A stretch of 64,000 nt of DNA from Cytobacillus gottheilii (GTDB lineage: Bacteria > Bacillota > Bacilli > Bacillales > Cytobacillaceae), in the NCBI RefSeq assembly GCF_900166665.1, contig NZ_LT800494.1:3983136-4047135 (forward strand), read 5' to 3'. This document shows positions 29,020-53,666 of this stretch, one piece after another. The notes under the pieces were generated by a model. That model saw nothing but the letters and a program-made list of their open reading frames with translations. It was not told the DNA's origin and did no database searches. How positions within the stretch are numbered: position 1 is the first letter of the stretch; each line of letters opens with the position of its first letter. A program made the translations under genes and the position numbers.

Positions 29020-29787
29020 CTAATGCTCATGAAAATACTGCCAAAGAACCTTTTTTAAAGATGAAGCTGTCAGTACATAATCTTGGATTCCATTCCTGCT
29101 CAATCCCTCAGCAGCATTTGGTTTTACACCAATTAATCTAGCTTTTTCTCCTGTGATAATCTCAATCGTTTTTAAAAAATCAATCAGCCTCCGAATTCCA
29201 GCTTCTTCTATCGATCCTGATGCTGTTAAGTCTACAAAAATCGTTTCAAAATCACCTTCAGATATATTTTGCAGACAACTTTCCGAGATCACCCGCAACT
29301 TCTCTTCAACGATATCCCCAAAGATCGGAATATAGCCTATTTTTTCACTCAATGGAATAAAGGGTCCTGACAGGACATCTAGTCTTCTTAAGGCACGCTC
29401 CAGTTCTTCCTTTTTTTCGAGTAATTCAAAGTCAGTATCATTTAATCTCGTTTGCAGACTGAGCAGCCTTTCCATTAAAATGCTCGTGTCATGATCTTTG
29501 CACCGGAATAGCAGATTCGCATGTTCATTTTCATCTATGGATATAAACACCTCATATAAAGATAAGTCCGATTTTGCGGATTTAACATGTATCTCTACCC
29601 CTGCAGCTGACTTTTCTGCATGAATCGCTCTTTGAAGCTTAGCCATGCTTTCTCCATCTACAAGGGAATAAAGGTTCCCCCTTAGTAAATTGAATTCCTC
29701 ATAGGCTGTTTTGGAAAAAGAAAGGATGGTACCGTCCTGTTTAATTTTCACAAAAGGCAGCGGCAGATTTTCATCAATTGCTTGCAT
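29020..29787 (-). CDS. PAS-like plus STAS-domain protein (RsbR-type regulator)
   Basis: 255 residues. The N-terminal PAS-like domain (about 1-95) begins LPFVKIKQDGTILSFSKTAY. A coiled-coil linker of about 105-135 follows (MERLLSLQTRLNDTDFELLE). The C-terminal STAS domain (about 145-250) is of the RsbR/YtvA class, with FVDLTASGSIEEAGIRRLID where RsbR-like proteins carry phosphorylated Ser/Thr. Such proteins build stressosomes and control the RsbT kinase. The start overlaps the end of the B12-protein gene by 14 bp, so the two are co-translated and probably partners. The sensory link is inference. Confidence 0.82.
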   Translation of the reverse strand: MQAIDENLPLPFVKIKQDGTILSFSKTAYEEFNLLRGNLYSLVDGESMAKLQRAIHAEKSAAGVEIHVKSAKSDLSLYEVFISIDENEHANLLFRCKDHDTSILMERLLSLQTRLNDTDFELLEKKEELERALRRLDVLSGPFIPLSEKIGYIPIFGDIVEEKLRVISESCLQNISEGDFETIFVDLTASGSIEEAGIRRLIDFLKTIEIITGEKARLIGVKPNAAEGLSRNGIQDYVLTASSLKKVLWQYFHEH

Positions 29788-30427
29788 ATGTGGAATCCTC
29801 CGTCCTTGTGCTCCAATCCTTTAGCCAGTCTGTCACTGAATTTAAATCTTTCAAAACAATCGACTGAGATGAGGTAAAAAGATTAAGATCATACATGGAT
29901 GCGAGTCTGCCTCCTACTAAAATAGCAGGTTTCTGGGGAAGCCCTTCAAATGCTTTCGTATATTCTTTAAGCTTTGGCAGGTTTGTTGCTAGTGAAATAG
30001 ATACGCAGATCACTTTTGCTTGCCATTTCAAACTATCCTGCAGAGCAACATCTAGGGGCAGGTTTGGTCCATAATACTTCGTTTCCCATCCATGTTCCTG
30101 GAAAAGACTGTCCACCATTTTTAACCCGAGATAATGCTGCTCGCCTTCTATGCAAAAGAACATAGCCCTTCTTGTTTTGTTTTCTTCACATTTATTTTTA
30201 TACATAAGCTTTGATAGGACAAAGTCACATGTGGCTGTTGCCAGATGCTCTTCAGCAACCGTAATTTTATTTTGCTCCCATAGCACCCCAATATATCGCA
30301 TCGCGGGTGTCATAACGTCATTATAAATAGAGAAGTGATCTTGCTTCTTCTCTTTTTGAATGTATTCTATTGCTTTATCGGTATCTCCCAAAAGAAGGAT
30401 GGAAGCAAATTCAACTTCTTTACTCAT
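29774..30427 (-). CDS. Stand-alone cobalamin-binding protein (CarH/LitR sensor-like, no HTH)
   Basis: 217 residues made only of a B12-binding module. The helical cap has W50-x9-E60-H61 (LWEQNKITVAEEH), the signature of adenosylcobalamin photoreceptors such as CarH. The Rossmann part has E96-x-H98-x-x-G101 (EGEQHYLG), with His98 as the likely lower ligand. It lacks the MerR-type DNA-binding domain of CarH/LitR and any methyltransferase domain. ATG 30427 follows AAGGGTG. It overlaps the PAS-STAS gene downstream by 14 bp. I infer a B12-based light or cofactor sensor acting through the STAS partner. Confidence 0.8.
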   Translation of the reverse strand: MSKEVEFASILLLGDTDKAIEYIQKEKKQDHFSIYNDVMTPAMRYIGVLWEQNKITVAEEHLATATCDFVLSKLMYKNKCEENKTRRAMFFCIEGEQHYLGLKMVDSLFQEHGWETKYYGPNLPLDVALQDSLKWQAKVICVSISLATNLPKLKEYTKAFEGLPQKPAILVGGRLASMYDLNLFTSSQSIVLKDLNSVTDWLKDWSTRTEDSTYASN

Positions 30428-30526
30428 TTGATCACACCCTTTGCTGCCGTTTAAGAATAGTGTAACATACAATCATTTCTGTATGAGATGAACTGCTTAT
30501 TCTTTTGATCCCGCAGTCTATCCATC

Positions 30527-30832
30527 TTACCGTGCAACGATTTTATATTGCGTTACTTTCGGAACAATAGCAGCAAGCTCTTGATCAGGATATTTTTTTT
30601 CCAGATCATGTATCTTTTTAAAATCTTCGCCTCTTACCCAATTTAAATAATTTTCCTTTGAATCAAAAATAAGCTGTACCGTCAGCTCTCCCTTGCGTTT
30701 ATCGTTTTGGAGCAGCATAAAGTCAATAAATCCTGGTGCGGTATCAACCATTTTAGATCGATTTCTATAGATCGAAACGACTTCATCAGCCTTATTATCT
30801 GGTACGTCAAAAGTTGAAAAAACAGTGTACAT
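30527..30832 (-). CDS. Antibiotic biosynthesis monooxygenase-fold protein (HmoA/IsdG-like)
   Basis: 101-residue dimeric ferredoxin-fold protein. Trp and His of the IsdG-type heme site could be those in YLNWVRGEDFKKIH, but the matching N-terminal Asn is not evident, so heme degradation is uncertain. The start has an AAGGAG site. It lies about 100 bp upstream of the cobalamin-protein gene on the same strand, with a short gap, so co-transcription is possible. Confidence 0.7.
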   Translation of the reverse strand: MYTVFSTFDVPDNKADEVVSIYRNRSKMVDTAPGFIDFMLLQNDKRKGELTVQLIFDSKENYLNWVRGEDFKKIHDLEKKYPDQELAAIVPKVTQYKIVAR

Positions 30833-48114: not shown

Positions 48115-48378
48115 TAAACACCTCTCCCTATCCATTAAAAATTTAATCTTAATTTTACAGCACCATTCAAAATAATCAAGAGTTTTTCCACCCTAAAAAT
48201 ACATTTGTTCTTCTTTGGTAAACATCATGTTTCTCTTCAATAATATTTGATGAAGGAATACAGGCTATTATTCTCGAATGTTTTATTAATAAAAATTAGA
48301 TAATGATGTTTAAAATAAATTAAAATGGGTATAGAGAAGGGTATTTAATATGTTTATACACTCGAAGGGAAGTTAACG

Positions 48379-49521
48379 ATGAGAATACTAGTGGTTGATG
48401 ACAACGAAGCAAATTTATATGTCATCCAAAATATTTTAAAACGTGCGGGGTATCTTGATCTCTTAACATTTACATCAGCAGACGCAATGTTTAACTACTT
48501 TCAAGAAAGCTCTCATATTATTGGAGAAAGTTTAGCTGATGTCATCTTAATGGATATTATGATGCCTGAAATGGATGGGATTGAAGCTTGCAGACTGCTG
48601 CAGGAATCACAACGGCTAAAGGACATTCCTGTAATATTTGTAACCGCTCTCGAAGATTCCAATAAAGTCGCTGAAGCACTGGATGCTGGCGGTATGGACT
48701 ATGTGATGAAACCTATAAATAAAGTTGAACTTCTTGCCAGAATACGCGTTGCCATTCGATTAAAAGAAGAAAAGGATTGGCATATGGAGCAGGAAGAAAA
48801 AATTAAAACTGAATTAGATTTGGCCACACAAGTACAAATGAGTGTCTTAAGTGAGCCATTAAATTTCGATAACCTGCTTATCAAAGCTTCATATTTACCG
48901 GCAAACAAGTTAGCTGGCGATCTTTATTACTGGAGAAAAATCGAAGAAAATCGATATGCTATTATTCAGCTTGATATGATGGGGCATGGGATCTCTGCTT
49001 CACTTGTTTGCATGTTCATTTCTTCCGTGCTTCGTGATTTGATGAGAACAGATCCTGATCCTGAGTACGTTATGCAGGAGCTAAACAAATGGATGAATGG
49101 GCTAAACAAGCATAACGGACAAATTCCCTATTATTTCACAGCTATTTATCTTGTCCTTGATACAGAAGAAAAAACGGTTCAATATGTAAATGCTGGTCAT
49201 CCATCAGGCATTGCTCTTTTGGACGAAAAAGAAGTAATAGAGCTTTCAAACAATACATATGCAATCGGTTTTTTTGATGACATTGAAATCAAAAAAACTA
49301 CCTTTACTTATACAGATTCATTGCAATTACTACTTGTAACAGATGGAATTGTAGAGACATTAGAAGATTCTGGAATTACTCCTTGTGATTACTTAAAAGA
49401 GACAACATCATTCCTTTGGAACTCGGCAGCCAAAATTGAACCCATCAACATGATCCTTTCAAAAGAACAGCAATTATTAGCAGATGATGATATGTGCGCC
49501 GTTCTTATTCAATCAAAATAA
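48379..49521 (+). CDS. rsbY: RsbY-like response regulator with PP2C phosphatase
   Basis: 380 residues: an N-terminal receiver (Asp59 in VILMDIMMPEMDG, Lys in DYVMKPINKVEL), a helical linker, and a C-terminal SpoIIE/RsbU-type PP2C phosphatase (NKLAGDLYYWRKI, QLDMMGHGISASL, YVNAGHPSG, LLLVTDGIVE). In B. cereus RsbY dephosphorylates the anti-anti-sigma RsbV to free sigma-B. The neighbouring CheR-like and hybrid-kinase genes match RsbM and RsbK, which supports the name. rsbV, rsbW and sigB are not in this window. Confidence 0.85.
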   Translation: MRILVVDDNEANLYVIQNILKRAGYLDLLTFTSADAMFNYFQESSHIIGESLADVILMDIMMPEMDGIEACRLLQESQRLKDIPVIFVTALEDSNKVAEALDAGGMDYVMKPINKVELLARIRVAIRLKEEKDWHMEQEEKIKTELDLATQVQMSVLSEPLNFDNLLIKASYLPANKLAGDLYYWRKIEENRYAIIQLDMMGHGISASLVCMFISSVLRDLMRTDPDPEYVMQELNKWMNGLNKHNGQIPYYFTAIYLVLDTEEKTVQYVNAGHPSGIALLDEKEVIELSNNTYAIGFFDDIEIKKTTFTYTDSLQLLLVTDGIVETLEDSGITPCDYLKETTSFLWNSAAKIEPINMILSKEQQLLADDDMCAVLIQSK

Positions 49522-49627
49522 ACATTACATACCGATTGGCAAACTACCGGTTTGCTGCTTCCATCTGTCTTTCCATACAAGCTCAGTGGTAAGAACAATA
49601 AATATTTTTAAACTTCATCTATAAAAT

Positions 49628-49690
49628 AAAACCCGAACGAATTCAAATTCTTTTAAATAAATGAATTTGATGCATCGTTCGGGTTTTTCT
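49628..49690 (+). terminator. Terminator of the RsbY-like gene
   Basis: AACCCGAACGA and TCGTTCGGGTT form an 11-bp stem with a long AT-rich loop, followed by TTTCTAT. Confidence 0.8.
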
Positions 49691-49819
49691 ATTCCAGCTT
49701 CTGTTACATCGACTATGGGAAGGAGTCTGAGCTGTTATATTGTATTCCAGCAGCCCGCGTTCCCCACCTGTCAAATTTTTCTCATCTTTTTCTTCCTTTT
49801 GCATCGCTTAAAAAGAATG

Positions 49820-50641
49820 TTATCTTTTTTTCATATAAAACTTTTCCTTCATATTAAAAGGTTCAAATATTTGTGTTTCAGTACGGATGGATTCCTTGCT
49901 GCCCAGTCCTAAAAATCCATTTTTTGTTAGGCTTTCATTAAATAAGTTTAGAACATGGCCTTGTAATTCCAAGTTAAAATATATCAGGACATTGCGGCAG
50001 ATAATGACATGAAATTCATTAAACGACCGGTCTGTGACCAGGTTGTGCTGAGCAAATATAATCCGATCGAGTAAATGCTGGTTCAAATAAGCGGCTTCGC
50101 TATCCGCCGTGTAATACTCTGAAAAGGACTTCTTTCCGCCTGCAAGCATATAGTTTTTTGTGTACGCTTGCATTTTATGAAGAGGAATAATACCGCTCTC
50201 CGCTTTCTTTAATACTGTTTCATTCATGTCGGTCGCATAAATGTTAGTAATAGCACCAAGACCCTCCTCTTCCATTAGAATAGCCATTGAGTAGGCTTCT
50301 TCTCCTGTTGAACAGCCTGCATGCCATATTCTTATTTCCGGAAGCCCAGCAAGAAGCGGAACGACTTCTTTGCGAAAGGTTTGAAAAAAGCCCGGGTCTC
50401 TGAACATTTCTGTTACATTGATCGAGAAATCACTTAATATTTTGCGAAGCATATGTTCATCATGAATAATTCTTTCTGTTAAAAGGGTCATATTGGCAAG
50501 TCGCTCAATCCGAAGTCTATTATCAACTCTGCGTTTGATAGAAGCGCGCATATATTTTCTAAAATCATAGCCTGATAGTTTATATACTGCATGAAGCAGC
50601 AAGTCCAATTCTAATTCTTCTTTGTTCATGAATTTTTTCAT
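49820..50641 (-). CDS. rsbM: CheR-family methyltransferase (RsbM-like)
   Basis: 273 residues. N-terminal CheR helical domain (YDFRKYMRASIKRRVDNRLR), then a SAM-binding Rossmann domain (IRIWHAGCSTGEEAYSMAIL, IYATDMNETVLKKAESGI, FHVIICRNVLIYF). It lacks receptor-binding extras. No chemotaxis genes are nearby; instead it sits beside the hybrid kinase, as B. cereus rsbM does. RsbM methylates Glu residues in the RsbK coiled coil and damps sigma-B activation. The start follows GATGAGGA. Confidence 0.85.
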   Translation of the reverse strand: MKKFMNKEELELDLLLHAVYKLSGYDFRKYMRASIKRRVDNRLRIERLANMTLLTERIIHDEHMLRKILSDFSINVTEMFRDPGFFQTFRKEVVPLLAGLPEIRIWHAGCSTGEEAYSMAILMEEEGLGAITNIYATDMNETVLKKAESGIIPLHKMQAYTKNYMLAGGKKSFSEYYTADSEAAYLNQHLLDRIIFAQHNLVTDRSFNEFHVIICRNVLIYFNLELQGHVLNLFNESLTKNGFLGLGSKESIRTETQIFEPFNMKEKFYMKKR

Positions 50642-50852
50642 TCCTCATCTTTCTCAATCAATTCTTCTAATATCCGCCTTCCAAGTGTAAAAGGAAAGAA
50701 GGCAATTCTTTAATACCCAAATTCTAAGATGAGTAAACCTTTTTATCATGTGTTTTAAAAAAGATGGCGGCCTGGTTATAGCCGCCATCTTTCCTATTGA
50801 AACCCTTCAGTGTTTCTTTAACTGTTTAGGATTCATTAAGTCTCCTGGTACT

Positions 50853-53666
50853 TTACTTTGCAATCCACACGCGCATGACAGATAGGAGCTGGTCTAGTTT
50901 GAGTGGTTTGCTTATATAGTCTGATGCTCCTGCTTCAATGCATTTTTCTCGGTCACCTTTCATTGCTTTTGCTGTAAGAGCAATGATTGGAACGTCATGA
51001 TGCTGTTCAAGGCTGCGAATTCTTTTCATTGTTTCATAGCCATCCATTACCGGCATCATAATATCCATTAGGACAATATCTACTTGGTCTCTGGCCATTA
51101 AAGTGTCAAGGCATTGGAGGCCATTTGCTGCTGTAATAACATTCATTCCTTCTTTTTCTAACGCATTTTTCAGTGCGTAGATATTTCGATTATCGTCATC
51201 TACAACGATTACTGTTTTGTCTTTTAAGTCCTTCGCCATCTCTGCTTTTTCAACATGTTCTACATGGTCAATTGTCTTCTCGACTACTTCATGAACAGGA
51301 TCATTTGATAGACTATTTTCTAATTCTAACGCTGATGCAGCTTCCTCTTCAGCTTTTAATTCCTCTATTGTAGAAGGCATTCCGCCTGGCAGGCTTGGAA
51401 TCAGTAAAGCAAAGCTGCTGCCTTCTCCTTCAACGCTGTGTTCTACCTTGCAGGTACCGCCAAGCAGGTTCGCAAACTCCTTAGTAATGGATAAACCGAG
51501 ACCCGTACCGCCAAATTTGCGCATGGTGGCTCCGTCAGCTTGCTGGAAAGCTTCAAAGATCATTTTCTGCTTATCAGGTGCAATTCCAATTCCCGTATCG
51601 GAAACGATAATTTTGAGCCAATTCGAGGAATGCTCTGACATAGGCAATAAAGCATATTCCTCCTGTTTCGCTTTTTCTAGCAATACAGTTACCGAGCCTT
51701 CTTCTGTAAACTTAAATGCATTTGATAGCAGGTTTTTGACAACCTGCTGCAGACGCATCTCATCGGTATGCATCAGCATCGGAATATCATCATTAGCAAT
51801 CACAGAAAAATCCAGACCTTTGTGCTTCGCCATTTGCGCAAAATGAAGCTTAATACGATCGGCAAAGTCTACAATATTTACTTCTTCAAACTTAATTTCC
51901 AGCTTTCCAACTTCAACCTTTGATAGATCGAGAATATCATTTATCAAGTTTAGAAGATCTTGACCAGAAGAATGAATCACACGTGAAAATTCCTTCTGCT
52001 CATCTGTCAGCACTTGATCGGGATCTTCTTCAAGCATTTCAGATAATAATAGAATACTATTTAATGGTGTTCTTAACTCATGTGACATATTCGCAAGGAA
52101 CTCCGATTTATATTTAGAACTTAAAGTTAATTCCTTCGCTTTTTCTTCGAGCTCTTCCTTTGCAGCAAGAAGTTCTTCTGACTTCAGCTCTGCATCCTTT
52201 GTGCGCTCCTCAAGCTGTTCATTAATAATGCGCAGTTCTTCTGCCTGTGTTTGCATTTCTTCAGATTGGGCCTGAAGCTCTTCAGATTGCGTCTGCAATT
52301 CTTCAGATTGTGTTTGCAGCTCTTCAGTTTGAGCCTGTGATTCTTGTAGCAAGCGAACAATTTCCATTCTGCCTGCAATATTTGTAATAGCTATTCCAAG
52401 TGTTTCAGTGACTTCCTGTATCATTTTAATTTGAGCTGCTGTAAAATGCTGTAACCCAGCAAGCTCGATTACCGCAACAACTTCATCATTCATAAGAATC
52501 GGTGCCATTACAATGCTTCTTGGCTGGAATTCACCAAAACCTGTTGAAATCATTCTATAATTGTCTGGTATATCGCGAATTTGGGTTATTTTCTTTTCAA
52601 TAACCGTTTGGCCAATCAGCCCTTCGCCAGGTGCGAAAGCATCTCTTCCGGCACTATCTTTATCCCCAGCAACAGCCGCAGCACGCGTAAAGAGAACTTC
52701 ATCGCCACTTTCTTTTTTGATATAGAAAATACCAAGATCTGCTCCAGCAATAGGCGTCAGTTTCTTTATAAAGTAAGACGCAAGCTCATCTACTGTTACA
52801 AATCTGCTATAAGCTCCGATAATATCCGCAGAGGTTGTTTGAATCCAATTTTGTTCCGTAATTTCCGCCGTATACTTTTTCTCTTTTTTATTGTAATCCT
52901 CTAAAGAAGTGGCCATATAGTTAAACGCCTTCGCAATCTCACCGATTTCATCCTGCGTTTCTACTTCTAAGCGGGGAATCTTAGACAATTCGTTATAATC
53001 AATATCATTAATTCCTTTTGTAATGCTATTGATGCTACTGCTTGTACTGCGGATCACCCATAATGTCACACCTACAATCAGAATAATCACAACTGAAACA
53101 GCCGAAATAATAAAAATTAGCAACTGATTATATGTATTTGTGGCGCTTTCTAGAGACTCATTCATAAGTCCTTCTTGGTGATCTTTGAAATCGACCAATA
53201 GTTGTAAAAGCCTATCCCGGTTTTCAAGTTCTGCTGTATAGATTGCCGATACCCCAGCTTCATTCCCATCATTTATTAACTGAATGATTTCCTGCTCCAT
53301 CTCTAAGTAGGAGTTATAGCTGGACTGCAATTGATTAAAGATGTCCATCCCGTTTTCTGTATTAATGCTGCGTTCAAGATTAATCAAGTTGCTTTCAATT
53401 GTATGGTGACTTTCCTCCATGGAGCTTGCCAGCACCTGAGCATCCAATTCTTCACCATATGAGATAATATTAAGAAGCATTCTGTCGGCTTCATAAAATT
53501 CTTGTCTAATTTCTGTCGCTTCATTGACTTTGCTATATCGGTCTTGAACGATTTCCAGCATATTTTCTCTCATGACATTTACCATCATTAAAATGACAAA
53601 CATGAGCAAAAACAAAAAAAGCGTGGTCAAACCTAAACCGATAAACTGCTTTCTCTTAAAGCTCAA
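50853..53666 (-). CDS. rsbK: RsbK-like hybrid sensor histidine kinase
   Basis: 937 residues. In order: TM1 (about 12-30), extracellular CHASE3-like helices (about 35-180), TM2 (about 183-204), HAMP (about 205-258), GAF (about 275-430), a coiled coil with heptads EELQTQS/EELQAQS (about 448-480), HisKA with His529 (FLANMSHELRTPLNS), HATPase (GTGLGLSITKEF), and a C-terminal receiver (VLMDIMMPVMDG). This matches B. cereus RsbK, whose heptad Glu residues are methylated by RsbM and which phosphorylates RsbY. The start is TTG 53666 with GGAGGGG. Confidence 0.88.
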   Translation of the reverse strand: MSFKRKQFIGLGLTTLFLFLLMFVILMMVNVMRENMLEIVQDRYSKVNEATEIRQEFYEADRMLLNIISYGEELDAQVLASSMEESHHTIESNLINLERSINTENGMDIFNQLQSSYNSYLEMEQEIIQLINDGNEAGVSAIYTAELENRDRLLQLLVDFKDHQEGLMNESLESATNTYNQLLIFIISAVSVVIILIVGVTLWVIRSTSSSINSITKGINDIDYNELSKIPRLEVETQDEIGEIAKAFNYMATSLEDYNKKEKKYTAEITEQNWIQTTSADIIGAYSRFVTVDELASYFIKKLTPIAGADLGIFYIKKESGDEVLFTRAAAVAGDKDSAGRDAFAPGEGLIGQTVIEKKITQIRDIPDNYRMISTGFGEFQPRSIVMAPILMNDEVVAVIELAGLQHFTAAQIKMIQEVTETLGIAITNIAGRMEIVRLLQESQAQTEELQTQSEELQTQSEELQAQSEEMQTQAEELRIINEQLEERTKDAELKSEELLAAKEELEEKAKELTLSSKYKSEFLANMSHELRTPLNSILLLSEMLEEDPDQVLTDEQKEFSRVIHSSGQDLLNLINDILDLSKVEVGKLEIKFEEVNIVDFADRIKLHFAQMAKHKGLDFSVIANDDIPMLMHTDEMRLQQVVKNLLSNAFKFTEEGSVTVLLEKAKQEEYALLPMSEHSSNWLKIIVSDTGIGIAPDKQKMIFEAFQQADGATMRKFGGTGLGLSITKEFANLLGGTCKVEHSVEGEGSSFALLIPSLPGGMPSTIEELKAEEEAASALELENSLSNDPVHEVVEKTIDHVEHVEKAEMAKDLKDKTVIVVDDDNRNIYALKNALEKEGMNVITAANGLQCLDTLMARDQVDIVLMDIMMPVMDGYETMKRIRSLEQHHDVPIIALTAKAMKGDREKCIEAGASDYISKPLKLDQLLSVMRVWIAK

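Follow-up and report, generated by a model that had tools for sequence, protein, structure and literature searches.

A gene for a stand-alone B12-binding protein that overlaps a gene for a PAS-STAS protein raises two questions: what does such a pair sense, and to which target does it pass the signal? The pair studied here lies in a 64-kb stretch of DNA, which was analysed as a whole and which we refer to as the window. It had been read before, from the letters alone, as a CarH/LitR-type cobalamin module that signals to a STAS partner by protein contact, and as a system of a form that had not been described. We wanted to know how far this original prediction holds, and what the relatives of the operon say about its function.

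Results

Organization of the operon

Among the open reading frames of the 64-kb window, three co-directional genes follow each other on the minus strand. The upstream gene (30527..30832) encodes a 101-residue HmuQ/IsdG-like protein with an ABM fold. It is followed by the B12 gene (29774..30427), which encodes the 217-residue, CarH-like protein P0001, and by the PAS-STAS gene (29020..29787), which encodes the 255-residue protein P0002, the conserved partner. The last two genes overlap by exactly 14 nt; their positions, the length of P0001 and the residues W50, E60, H61, E96, H98 and G101 are all as originally described. The ABM and B12 genes are separated by a gap of 99 nt (30428..30526, minus strand), and this is the site of a further gene in relatives, whose operon order is ABM, a 121-residue helical protein, B12 and PAS-STAS. 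The helical protein is called photoglobin here, on evidence given below. Neither the ABM gene, nor the fourth gene of the relatives that is lost here, nor an rsbRST-sigB operon elsewhere in the genome had been part of the original prediction. The B12 protein of the window is identical to that of the C. gottheilii genome used for comparison at 207 of its 217 residues (95%).

We also searched the region for regulatory signals. An Rfam scan of 26-34 kb gave no match, which means that no known riboswitch is present there, and such a switch was rejected as a candidate regulator of the operon. A sigma-B promoter was rejected as well, since none of the three matches to the pattern in the whole window lies at the operon and their number is close to that expected by chance (mean 2.44). 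In consensus scans, promoter-like sites numbered four and terminator-like sites three, where shuffled sequence gave means of 7.8 and 1.9, respectively.

The B12-binding protein carries the signature of light-responsive domains

P0001 passes the Pfam cut-offs for B12-binding_2 and B12-binding. Pfam found no DNA-binding domain in it, as had been proposed, and without a MerR-type or other DNA-binding domain P0001 was rejected as a CarH-type repressor; the CarH family model scores 48.4 bits against a cut-off of 400. The closest PDB matches are CtMerR (8JBS/8JBT) and the photocobilins 8J2W/8J2X/8J2Y, with CarH behind them.

According to PMC11796333, light-responsive cobalamin-binding domains share a signature of four motifs, GxxW, EH, GxxH and GxxxP. 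All four are found in P0001, on the minus strand. They are GxxW with Trp50 (30278..30280), which corresponds to Trp131 of TtCarH and Trp61 of SasPcob (PMC11796333, PMC10979010), the EH motif Glu60-His61 (30245..30250), the GxxH motif G95-E96-Q97-H98 (30134..30145), of which His98 is the predicted lower cobalt ligand, and the GxxxP motif G120-xxx-P124 (30056..30070). In an alignment of 61 B12 proteins, which excludes the broken copies L075 and L076, W50, E60, H61, E96 and H98 are present in every row, as are G47 and G120. P124 is present in 59 of the 61 rows and the first G of GxxH in only 33.

At one position the family departs from CarH. Residue 51 of P0001 is Glu, where CarH has His132, and the alignment has Glu in 53 and Gln in 8 of the 61 rows. 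Because the bis-His residue is thus replaced in all of them, the chemistry of CarH does not transfer unchanged. At the corresponding position SasPcob is reported to have Gln, AbDPcob Tyr and CtMerR Arg (PMC11796333), and since photocobilins are without the His too, its absence weakens the analogy with CarH only. The comparison with a CarH/LitR-type module coupled to a STAS protein therefore holds for the signature and the pairing, but not for the bis-His residue. Judged by its motifs, P0001 is probably a CarH-like B12 module that responds to light.

Weak matches to NCBIfam models of corrinoid proteins, such as TIGR02370 (36 bits, cut-off 215.3), could suggest that P0001 simply carries a corrinoid for a methyltransferase system. 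However, these scores are far under the cut-offs (215 to 450 bits), the light signature is retained, and the recurrent neighbours of the gene are those for ABM, photoglobin and PAS proteins; we regard a carrier role as extremely improbable.

The partner protein resembles RsbR and YtvA

P0002 has a PAS-like domain at about residues 8-100 (29488..29766, minus strand), which is the part common to STAS-, kinase- and short-type partners in relatives, and a STAS domain at about residues 139-255 (29023..29373, minus strand). In Pfam the STAS domain is sub-threshold (19.8 versus 22.6 bits); homology searches of the PDB matched it clearly to RsbR (E 2.5e-11), and by sequence it is nearest to RsbR and YtvA. 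The structural model of P0002 is of moderate confidence (pLDDT 74.3). Foldseek ranked YtvA and a stressosome RsbR first for this model, and in the structure ranking of the STAS domain RsbR (Z 16.8), RsbS (16.3) and SpoIIAA (16.2) are tied. PAS chains match the model at Z ~12 within residues 1-99. Homology, fold matches and the PAS match all agree with the class to which the partner had originally been assigned, that of PAS-like/STAS proteins related to RsbR and YtvA.

The LOV cysteine motif NCRFLQ, which we take to be that of YtvA, was not found in P0002, and flavin sensing by a LOV-type PAS domain was therefore rejected. The YtvA family model scores 47.1 bits (cut-off 250) and covers residues 124-245 only. 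We also inspected the two threonine positions of RsbR targeted by RsbT, whose places were taken from mutant and normal Listeria chains and which are presumably the sites of phosphorylation. They correspond to Glu161 and Glu195 in P0002, and the residues read in these columns, from 42 and at least 40 of the 48 STAS rows, include no Thr; the columns are not conserved across the PAS-STAS family. With Glu at unconserved target sites, P0002, if it is part of a stressosome, would be a subunit that is not switched there.

The B12 gene and a PAS gene are paired in relatives

Of 193 family genomes searched, 55 encode the B12 protein (E 7e-27 or better). We compared 63 distinct loci, consisting of those of the family genomes, four loci from a second collection and paralogs; repeats (L002-L005, L041-L048) were left out. 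Also left out was a different B12 protein of the window's own genome (L001/L040), which contributes a third B12-binding domain (G000:C4:3099377-3099724, in a 661-codon frame) and gives the strongest of the three matches in that genome.

A PAS protein is encoded downstream of the B12 gene at 61 of the 63 loci, and none was found beside the B12 gene at the other two, L023 and L068. The partner is of the STAS type at 48 loci, one of which (L013) appears interrupted, a histidine kinase at five, a short protein of about 200 residues at seven and broken at one (L075). A start codon that allows the exact 14-nt overlap is present at 46 of the 59 testable loci, including all five of the kinase type. 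Conservation of the pair, which had been suggested as a check together with that of the overlap, is thus observed for a PAS partner generally and, at 48 of the 63 loci, for a STAS partner; the case in which the original prediction would have failed, with no conserved STAS gene beside the B12 gene, did not arise. The pairing of B12 and PAS genes exceeds chance. As the output behind the PAS domain is a STAS domain, a kinase or a short form, the conserved unit of the partner is the PAS domain. The STAS partner of the original prediction is therefore indeed paired with the B12 gene, but its STAS domain is one of several outputs. Judging from the sequences, the output domain behind the shared B12 and PAS unit has been exchanged during evolution. 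At L050, L051, L057 and L058 the short PAS partner adjoins a giant gene that we read as CheB-CheR-PAS-histidine kinase-like, and a divergent photoglobin gene is present; this is a third type of output.

In a tree of the 61 B12 proteins, six short-type rows fall on one branch (support 99/94) and the five kinase-type rows group together (100/99). The B12 protein of the window belongs to a marked set of 22 rows, 20 of the STAS type and two without a partner. The window lineage is a long branch, and the kinase-type pair of the same genome is among the long branches that meet. Since the tree has a midpoint root and some long branches, we do not use it to arrange the changes in time.

The ABM gene is present at 49 of the 63 loci, and a photoglobin gene lies beside 56. 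At L013, L075, L076, L119 and L128 a B12, PAS-STAS or photoglobin gene is broken or interrupted; that this is seen in several genomes indicates that the module decays recurrently.

The helical protein of the relatives is related to the bilin domain of photocobilins

Pfam and NCBIfam name no family for the 121-residue helical protein. A profile built from 14 members matched SasPcob in its C-terminal bilin domain (E 0.0022), as well as alpha chains of phycocyanin (E from 0.0038); these values are modest, and an unrelated RAB6 chain is also matched (E 0.018). The model of one photoglobin (pLDDT 93.7) has five helices. Its best aligned chain is 8j2w (SasPcob residues 233-344; Z 15.0, 2.0 Å over 112 residues, 18% identity), tied within 1 Z with phycobilisome chains and biliverdin-bound smURFP, which are close behind. 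This top rank of SasPcob comes from a second aligner; Foldseek alone placed phycobiliproteins first (best E 0.0094, none at or below 0.001). Because of these ties, and because high Z scores are common for helical folds, the identity of the protein is based jointly on its fold, the profile, conserved residues and gene fusions.

As to the residues, an Asp and a Trp are invariant (56/56 photoglobins each) and align with Asp270 and Trp296 of SasPcob, with the numbering anchored on Trp61 of that protein; both residues are reported to contact the bilin (PMC10979010). A Cys occupies the position of the phycocyanin CxRD cysteine in 42 of the 56 photoglobins, and photocobilins are described as lacking a linking Cys (PMC10979010). 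As to fusions, the profile matches 15 of 398 genomes sampled across the phylum. Outside the order, 11 of the 12 matching genomes have the photoglobin fused to a B12 domain in a protein of about 350-375 residues, and one such fusion has an adjoining ABM gene (L126 1107-2538; same class, other order). Because of these fusions, we read the arrangement in separate genes as a split photocobilin. Within the order, the profile matches 162 of 397 sampled genomes and 51 of 135 genera, a few of the matches being broken; gene neighbourhoods were covered for part of the 162. Of the 55 family genomes that encode the B12 protein, 52 also have photoglobin, the exceptions being G049, G187 and G190; of the 138 that do not encode it, three have photoglobin, and all of these copies are broken or fragmentary (G019, G082 and G085). 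Sequence and model together identify the helical protein as a photoglobin.

These data also bear on the possibility that the B12 protein senses not light but the cobalamin level, or redox state or oxygen, in which case adenosylcobalamin would be a ligand and P0001 would report the supply of this cofactor to the STAS protein. The residues that contact adenosylcobalamin are kept, none of the 61 rows has the His on which the CarH light state depends, and a cobalamin adenosyltransferase is encoded in the genome, all of which would fit such a sensor. On the other hand, proteins picked by the four-motif signature proved to be light-responsive (PMC11796333), the photoglobin that adjoins most of the loci and is fused to the B12 domain elsewhere points to a light module, and the 26-34 kb region had no Rfam match. 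We therefore consider cofactor or redox sensing improbable, and light the better candidate for the signal.

The ABM protein may not degrade heme

IsdG-type enzymes use a catalytic set of Asn, Trp and His. The ABM protein matches the HmuQ model with 41.7 bits (cut-off 130), and among the 49 ABM proteins the position of the catalytic Asn holds Ser in 46, a gap in two and Ala in one. The Trp is kept in 31 (Tyr in the other 18) and the His in all 49. Because the Asn is replaced and the Trp only partly kept, the ABM protein may not degrade heme, and a role as a simple heme oxygenase is weakened. Three other matches to the ABM family are found elsewhere in the window's genome, and heme oxygenase PF01126 has no match in any of the 193 family genomes.

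The window operon has lost photoglobin and is under purifying selection

Photoglobin is absent from the operon of the window, where only 99 nt separate the ABM and B12 genes, and from that of the C. gottheilii comparison genome. Flanking genes place the operon at the same chromosomal site as the photoglobin-bearing operon of the relative L045, and these sequences indicate that the operon of the window lineage once had a photoglobin gene and lost it. In a search of the whole genome, photoglobin matched only at a second, paralogous locus about 456 kb away (L039; photoglobin gene at G000:C4:4467703-4468047), which has B12, PAS-histidine kinase and photoglobin genes and no adjoining ABM gene. Combined, the two loci hold one photoglobin, one ABM protein, two B12 receptors and two outputs.

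It is conceivable that the operon of the window is a decaying remnant that lost its function together with photoglobin. Genes have been lost piecemeal at this site within the clade: besides the loss in the window, the B12 gene of G049 was found with no ABM, photoglobin or PAS-STAS neighbour and that of G063 with no PAS-STAS neighbour, and the window lineage sits on a long branch. However, the three remaining genes have intact frames and omega values of 0.10 (B12), 0.12 (PAS-STAS) and 0.11 (ABM) in the comparison with C. gottheilii, which shows that they are under purifying selection. Moreover, B12/PAS loci without photoglobin also occur in G001, G002, G187 and G190, and their existence suggests that the B12 protein alone may suffice. 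A functionless remnant is thus quite unlikely.

Sigma-B and other possible outputs

The window's genome encodes rsbRSTUVW-sigB-rsbX in one operon, with the genes named by order and similarity, and two further RsbR-like proteins. It also encodes a YtvA-like LOV-STAS protein with the NCRFLQ motif (L098, G000:C4:2718000-2723000), so that blue light is probably served by a separate receptor. RsbT (E 1e-20 or better) was found in all 55 genomes that carry the B12 protein and in 81 of the 138 others, although the weaker of these 81 matches (E 1e-24 to 1e-27) could represent other kinases. This co-occurrence is confounded by kinship, which alone could explain it. In the two genomes of genus g14 for which the flanks were covered, the photoglobin operon has an additional RsbS-RsbT pair about 7 kb away, and the intervening stretch encodes an RsbR-like STAS protein (L101 7371-11509; L102 8560-12679; about 3-7 kb from the operon).

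The original prediction had pointed to an RsbKMY module 20 kb from the gene pair. Such a set is present in the window (48379-53666), its nearest end about 18 kb away, with the expected domains: a response regulator-SpoIIE phosphatase on the plus strand, and a CheR methyltransferase and a hybrid kinase with 4HB, HAMP and GAF domains on the minus strand. Sigma-B-like patterns lie just upstream of its first two genes (48308-48332, plus strand; 50713-50738, minus strand), in a window whose total of such patterns is about that expected by chance. Beyond the set itself, no tie to the B12/PAS-STAS pair was seen across this distance, and linkage of the two was rejected. As the target of signalling, the rsbRSTUVW-sigB operon of the same genome is likelier than the RsbKMY set.

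A light module might nevertheless be coupled to a STAS output that acts elsewhere, on a SpoIIE-type phosphatase such as RsbY of RsbKMY or on another anti-sigma factor. STAS domains have many targets, the structure ranking does not separate SpoIIAA from RsbR and RsbS, the RsbKMY-like set is not far away, and the RsbT-target sites are unconserved. Kinase (5) or short (7) outputs replace STAS at 12 of the 63 loci, which means that sigma-B is not a universal target, and in G092 (genus g16, L103) the extra RsbT and the B12 operon are on different contigs. Against this stand the similarity of the STAS domain to RsbR and YtvA, by sequence and in the Foldseek ranking, the presence of RsbT in every carrier genome and the extra RsbS-RsbT pairs near the operon in g14. 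We consider an output outside the stressosome rather unlikely, though it is the strongest of the alternatives, and prefer the stressosome as the destination of the signal.

Discussion

Because the operons of relatives carry photoglobin and ABM genes, the closest known kind of system is that of the photocobilins and photoglobins (PMC10979010), and the view that the pair represents a form of system without described counterpart does not hold. Photocobilins such as SasPcob and AbDPcob are B12 domains fused to a bilin-binding globin, and SasPcob has been predicted from interaction networks to meet STAS, SpoIIE and PP2C proteins (PMC10979010). Like photocobilins, the operons studied here encode a B12 domain of the class with W, EH and E-x-H motifs, and the photoglobins, both those of relatives and the one in this genome's paralogous operon, share the phycobiliprotein fold and the Asp and Trp through which SasPcob contacts its bilin. 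Unlike in photocobilins, B12 protein and globin are encoded by separate genes, with a PAS partner after them and usually an ABM gene before, a Cys occupies the attachment position of phycobiliproteins in most of the globins, and the globin is missing at the window locus. The operon of separate genes for B12, photoglobin, PAS partner and ABM proteins therefore differs from the known fused photocobilins.

Globin and B12-binding protein are also in separate genes in the BBAG-2 clusters, which are associated with a heme oxygenase and whose BBAG-2 globin binds biliverdin (PMC10151467). The main text of that paper, by word search, mentions no STAS partner, and it calls the oxygenase HO, whereas the present operons show only an IsdG-like ABM protein. 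P0001 shares the B12 domain and the cobalamin-contact residues with CarH/LitR but has neither a DNA-binding domain nor the upper-ligand His, so that its signal must go by protein contact. P0002 resembles YtvA and RsbR in combining a sensor domain with a STAS output that is nearest to theirs, but unlike in YtvA the chromophore protein is a separate subunit. In 2022, Schneider et al. reportedly proposed a coupling of photoglobins and B12 domains in signalling, under the term 'light-sensing regulatory bundle'. We found no description of the B12/photoglobin/PAS-STAS operon in literature searches that reach few subscription papers, and the 2022 photoglobin paper may already show it.

The presence of photoglobin and ABM genes with the B12/PAS set in many relatives suggests that the light receptor is probably split into separate proteins. 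On balance, we favour a split photocobilin, with this pair at its core, as the explanation: a two-chromophore light input that docks on PAS partners and is directed, here, toward the stressosome. The sequences provide the domain identities, the conservation of the operon, the relation of split to fused forms, the absence of photoglobin, purifying selection and the presence of rsbRSTUVW-sigB; from these we infer chromophore binding, a light response, docking on the PAS domain and output to the stressosome. The B12 protein would bind adenosylcobalamin between its helical and Rossmann halves, and green light, or light of shorter wavelength, would break the cobalt-carbon bond and change the shape or assembly of the protein. 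In most relatives a bilin, perhaps biliverdin or a similar linear tetrapyrrole, would be bound by the separate photoglobin next to the B12 edge and would extend the response to red light, and the ABM protein may make, bind or deliver this bilin. The assembly would dock on the PAS domain of the co-translated partner, after which the STAS domain of P0002 would most likely enter the RsbR/RsbS scaffold, or compete for it, and so alter the release of RsbT and, through it, the activity of sigma-B.

In the window, the STAS branch might work with B12 alone or borrow photoglobin from the paralogous B12/PAS-kinase operon. A more far-reaching proposal is that separate B12, photoglobin and PAS-STAS proteins, with a tetrapyrrole protein encoded in the operon, form a widespread green/red input of the stressosome in Bacillales and also that one photoglobin of the kinase operon is common to both B12 receptors of this genome. 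We hold this combination to be doubtful; if it were true, interchangeable chromophore subunits would route light to stressosome and two-component pathways.

Sigma-B of B. subtilis and of Listeria is activated by red light, and a paper of 2011 gives the receptor as unidentified at that time (PMC3019169). B. subtilis was not among the control genomes that match the B12-binding family, and the operon thus does not answer the red-light case of that species; it does offer a testable green/red receptor for its relatives. As a natural photocobilin whose chromophore and output subunits can be separated, the module might in addition be of use as an optogenetic kit. The exchange of outputs behind a single PAS domain illustrates the rewiring of such systems. 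If the preferred reading is true, many Bacillales carry a B12/bilin light input of exchangeable subunits.
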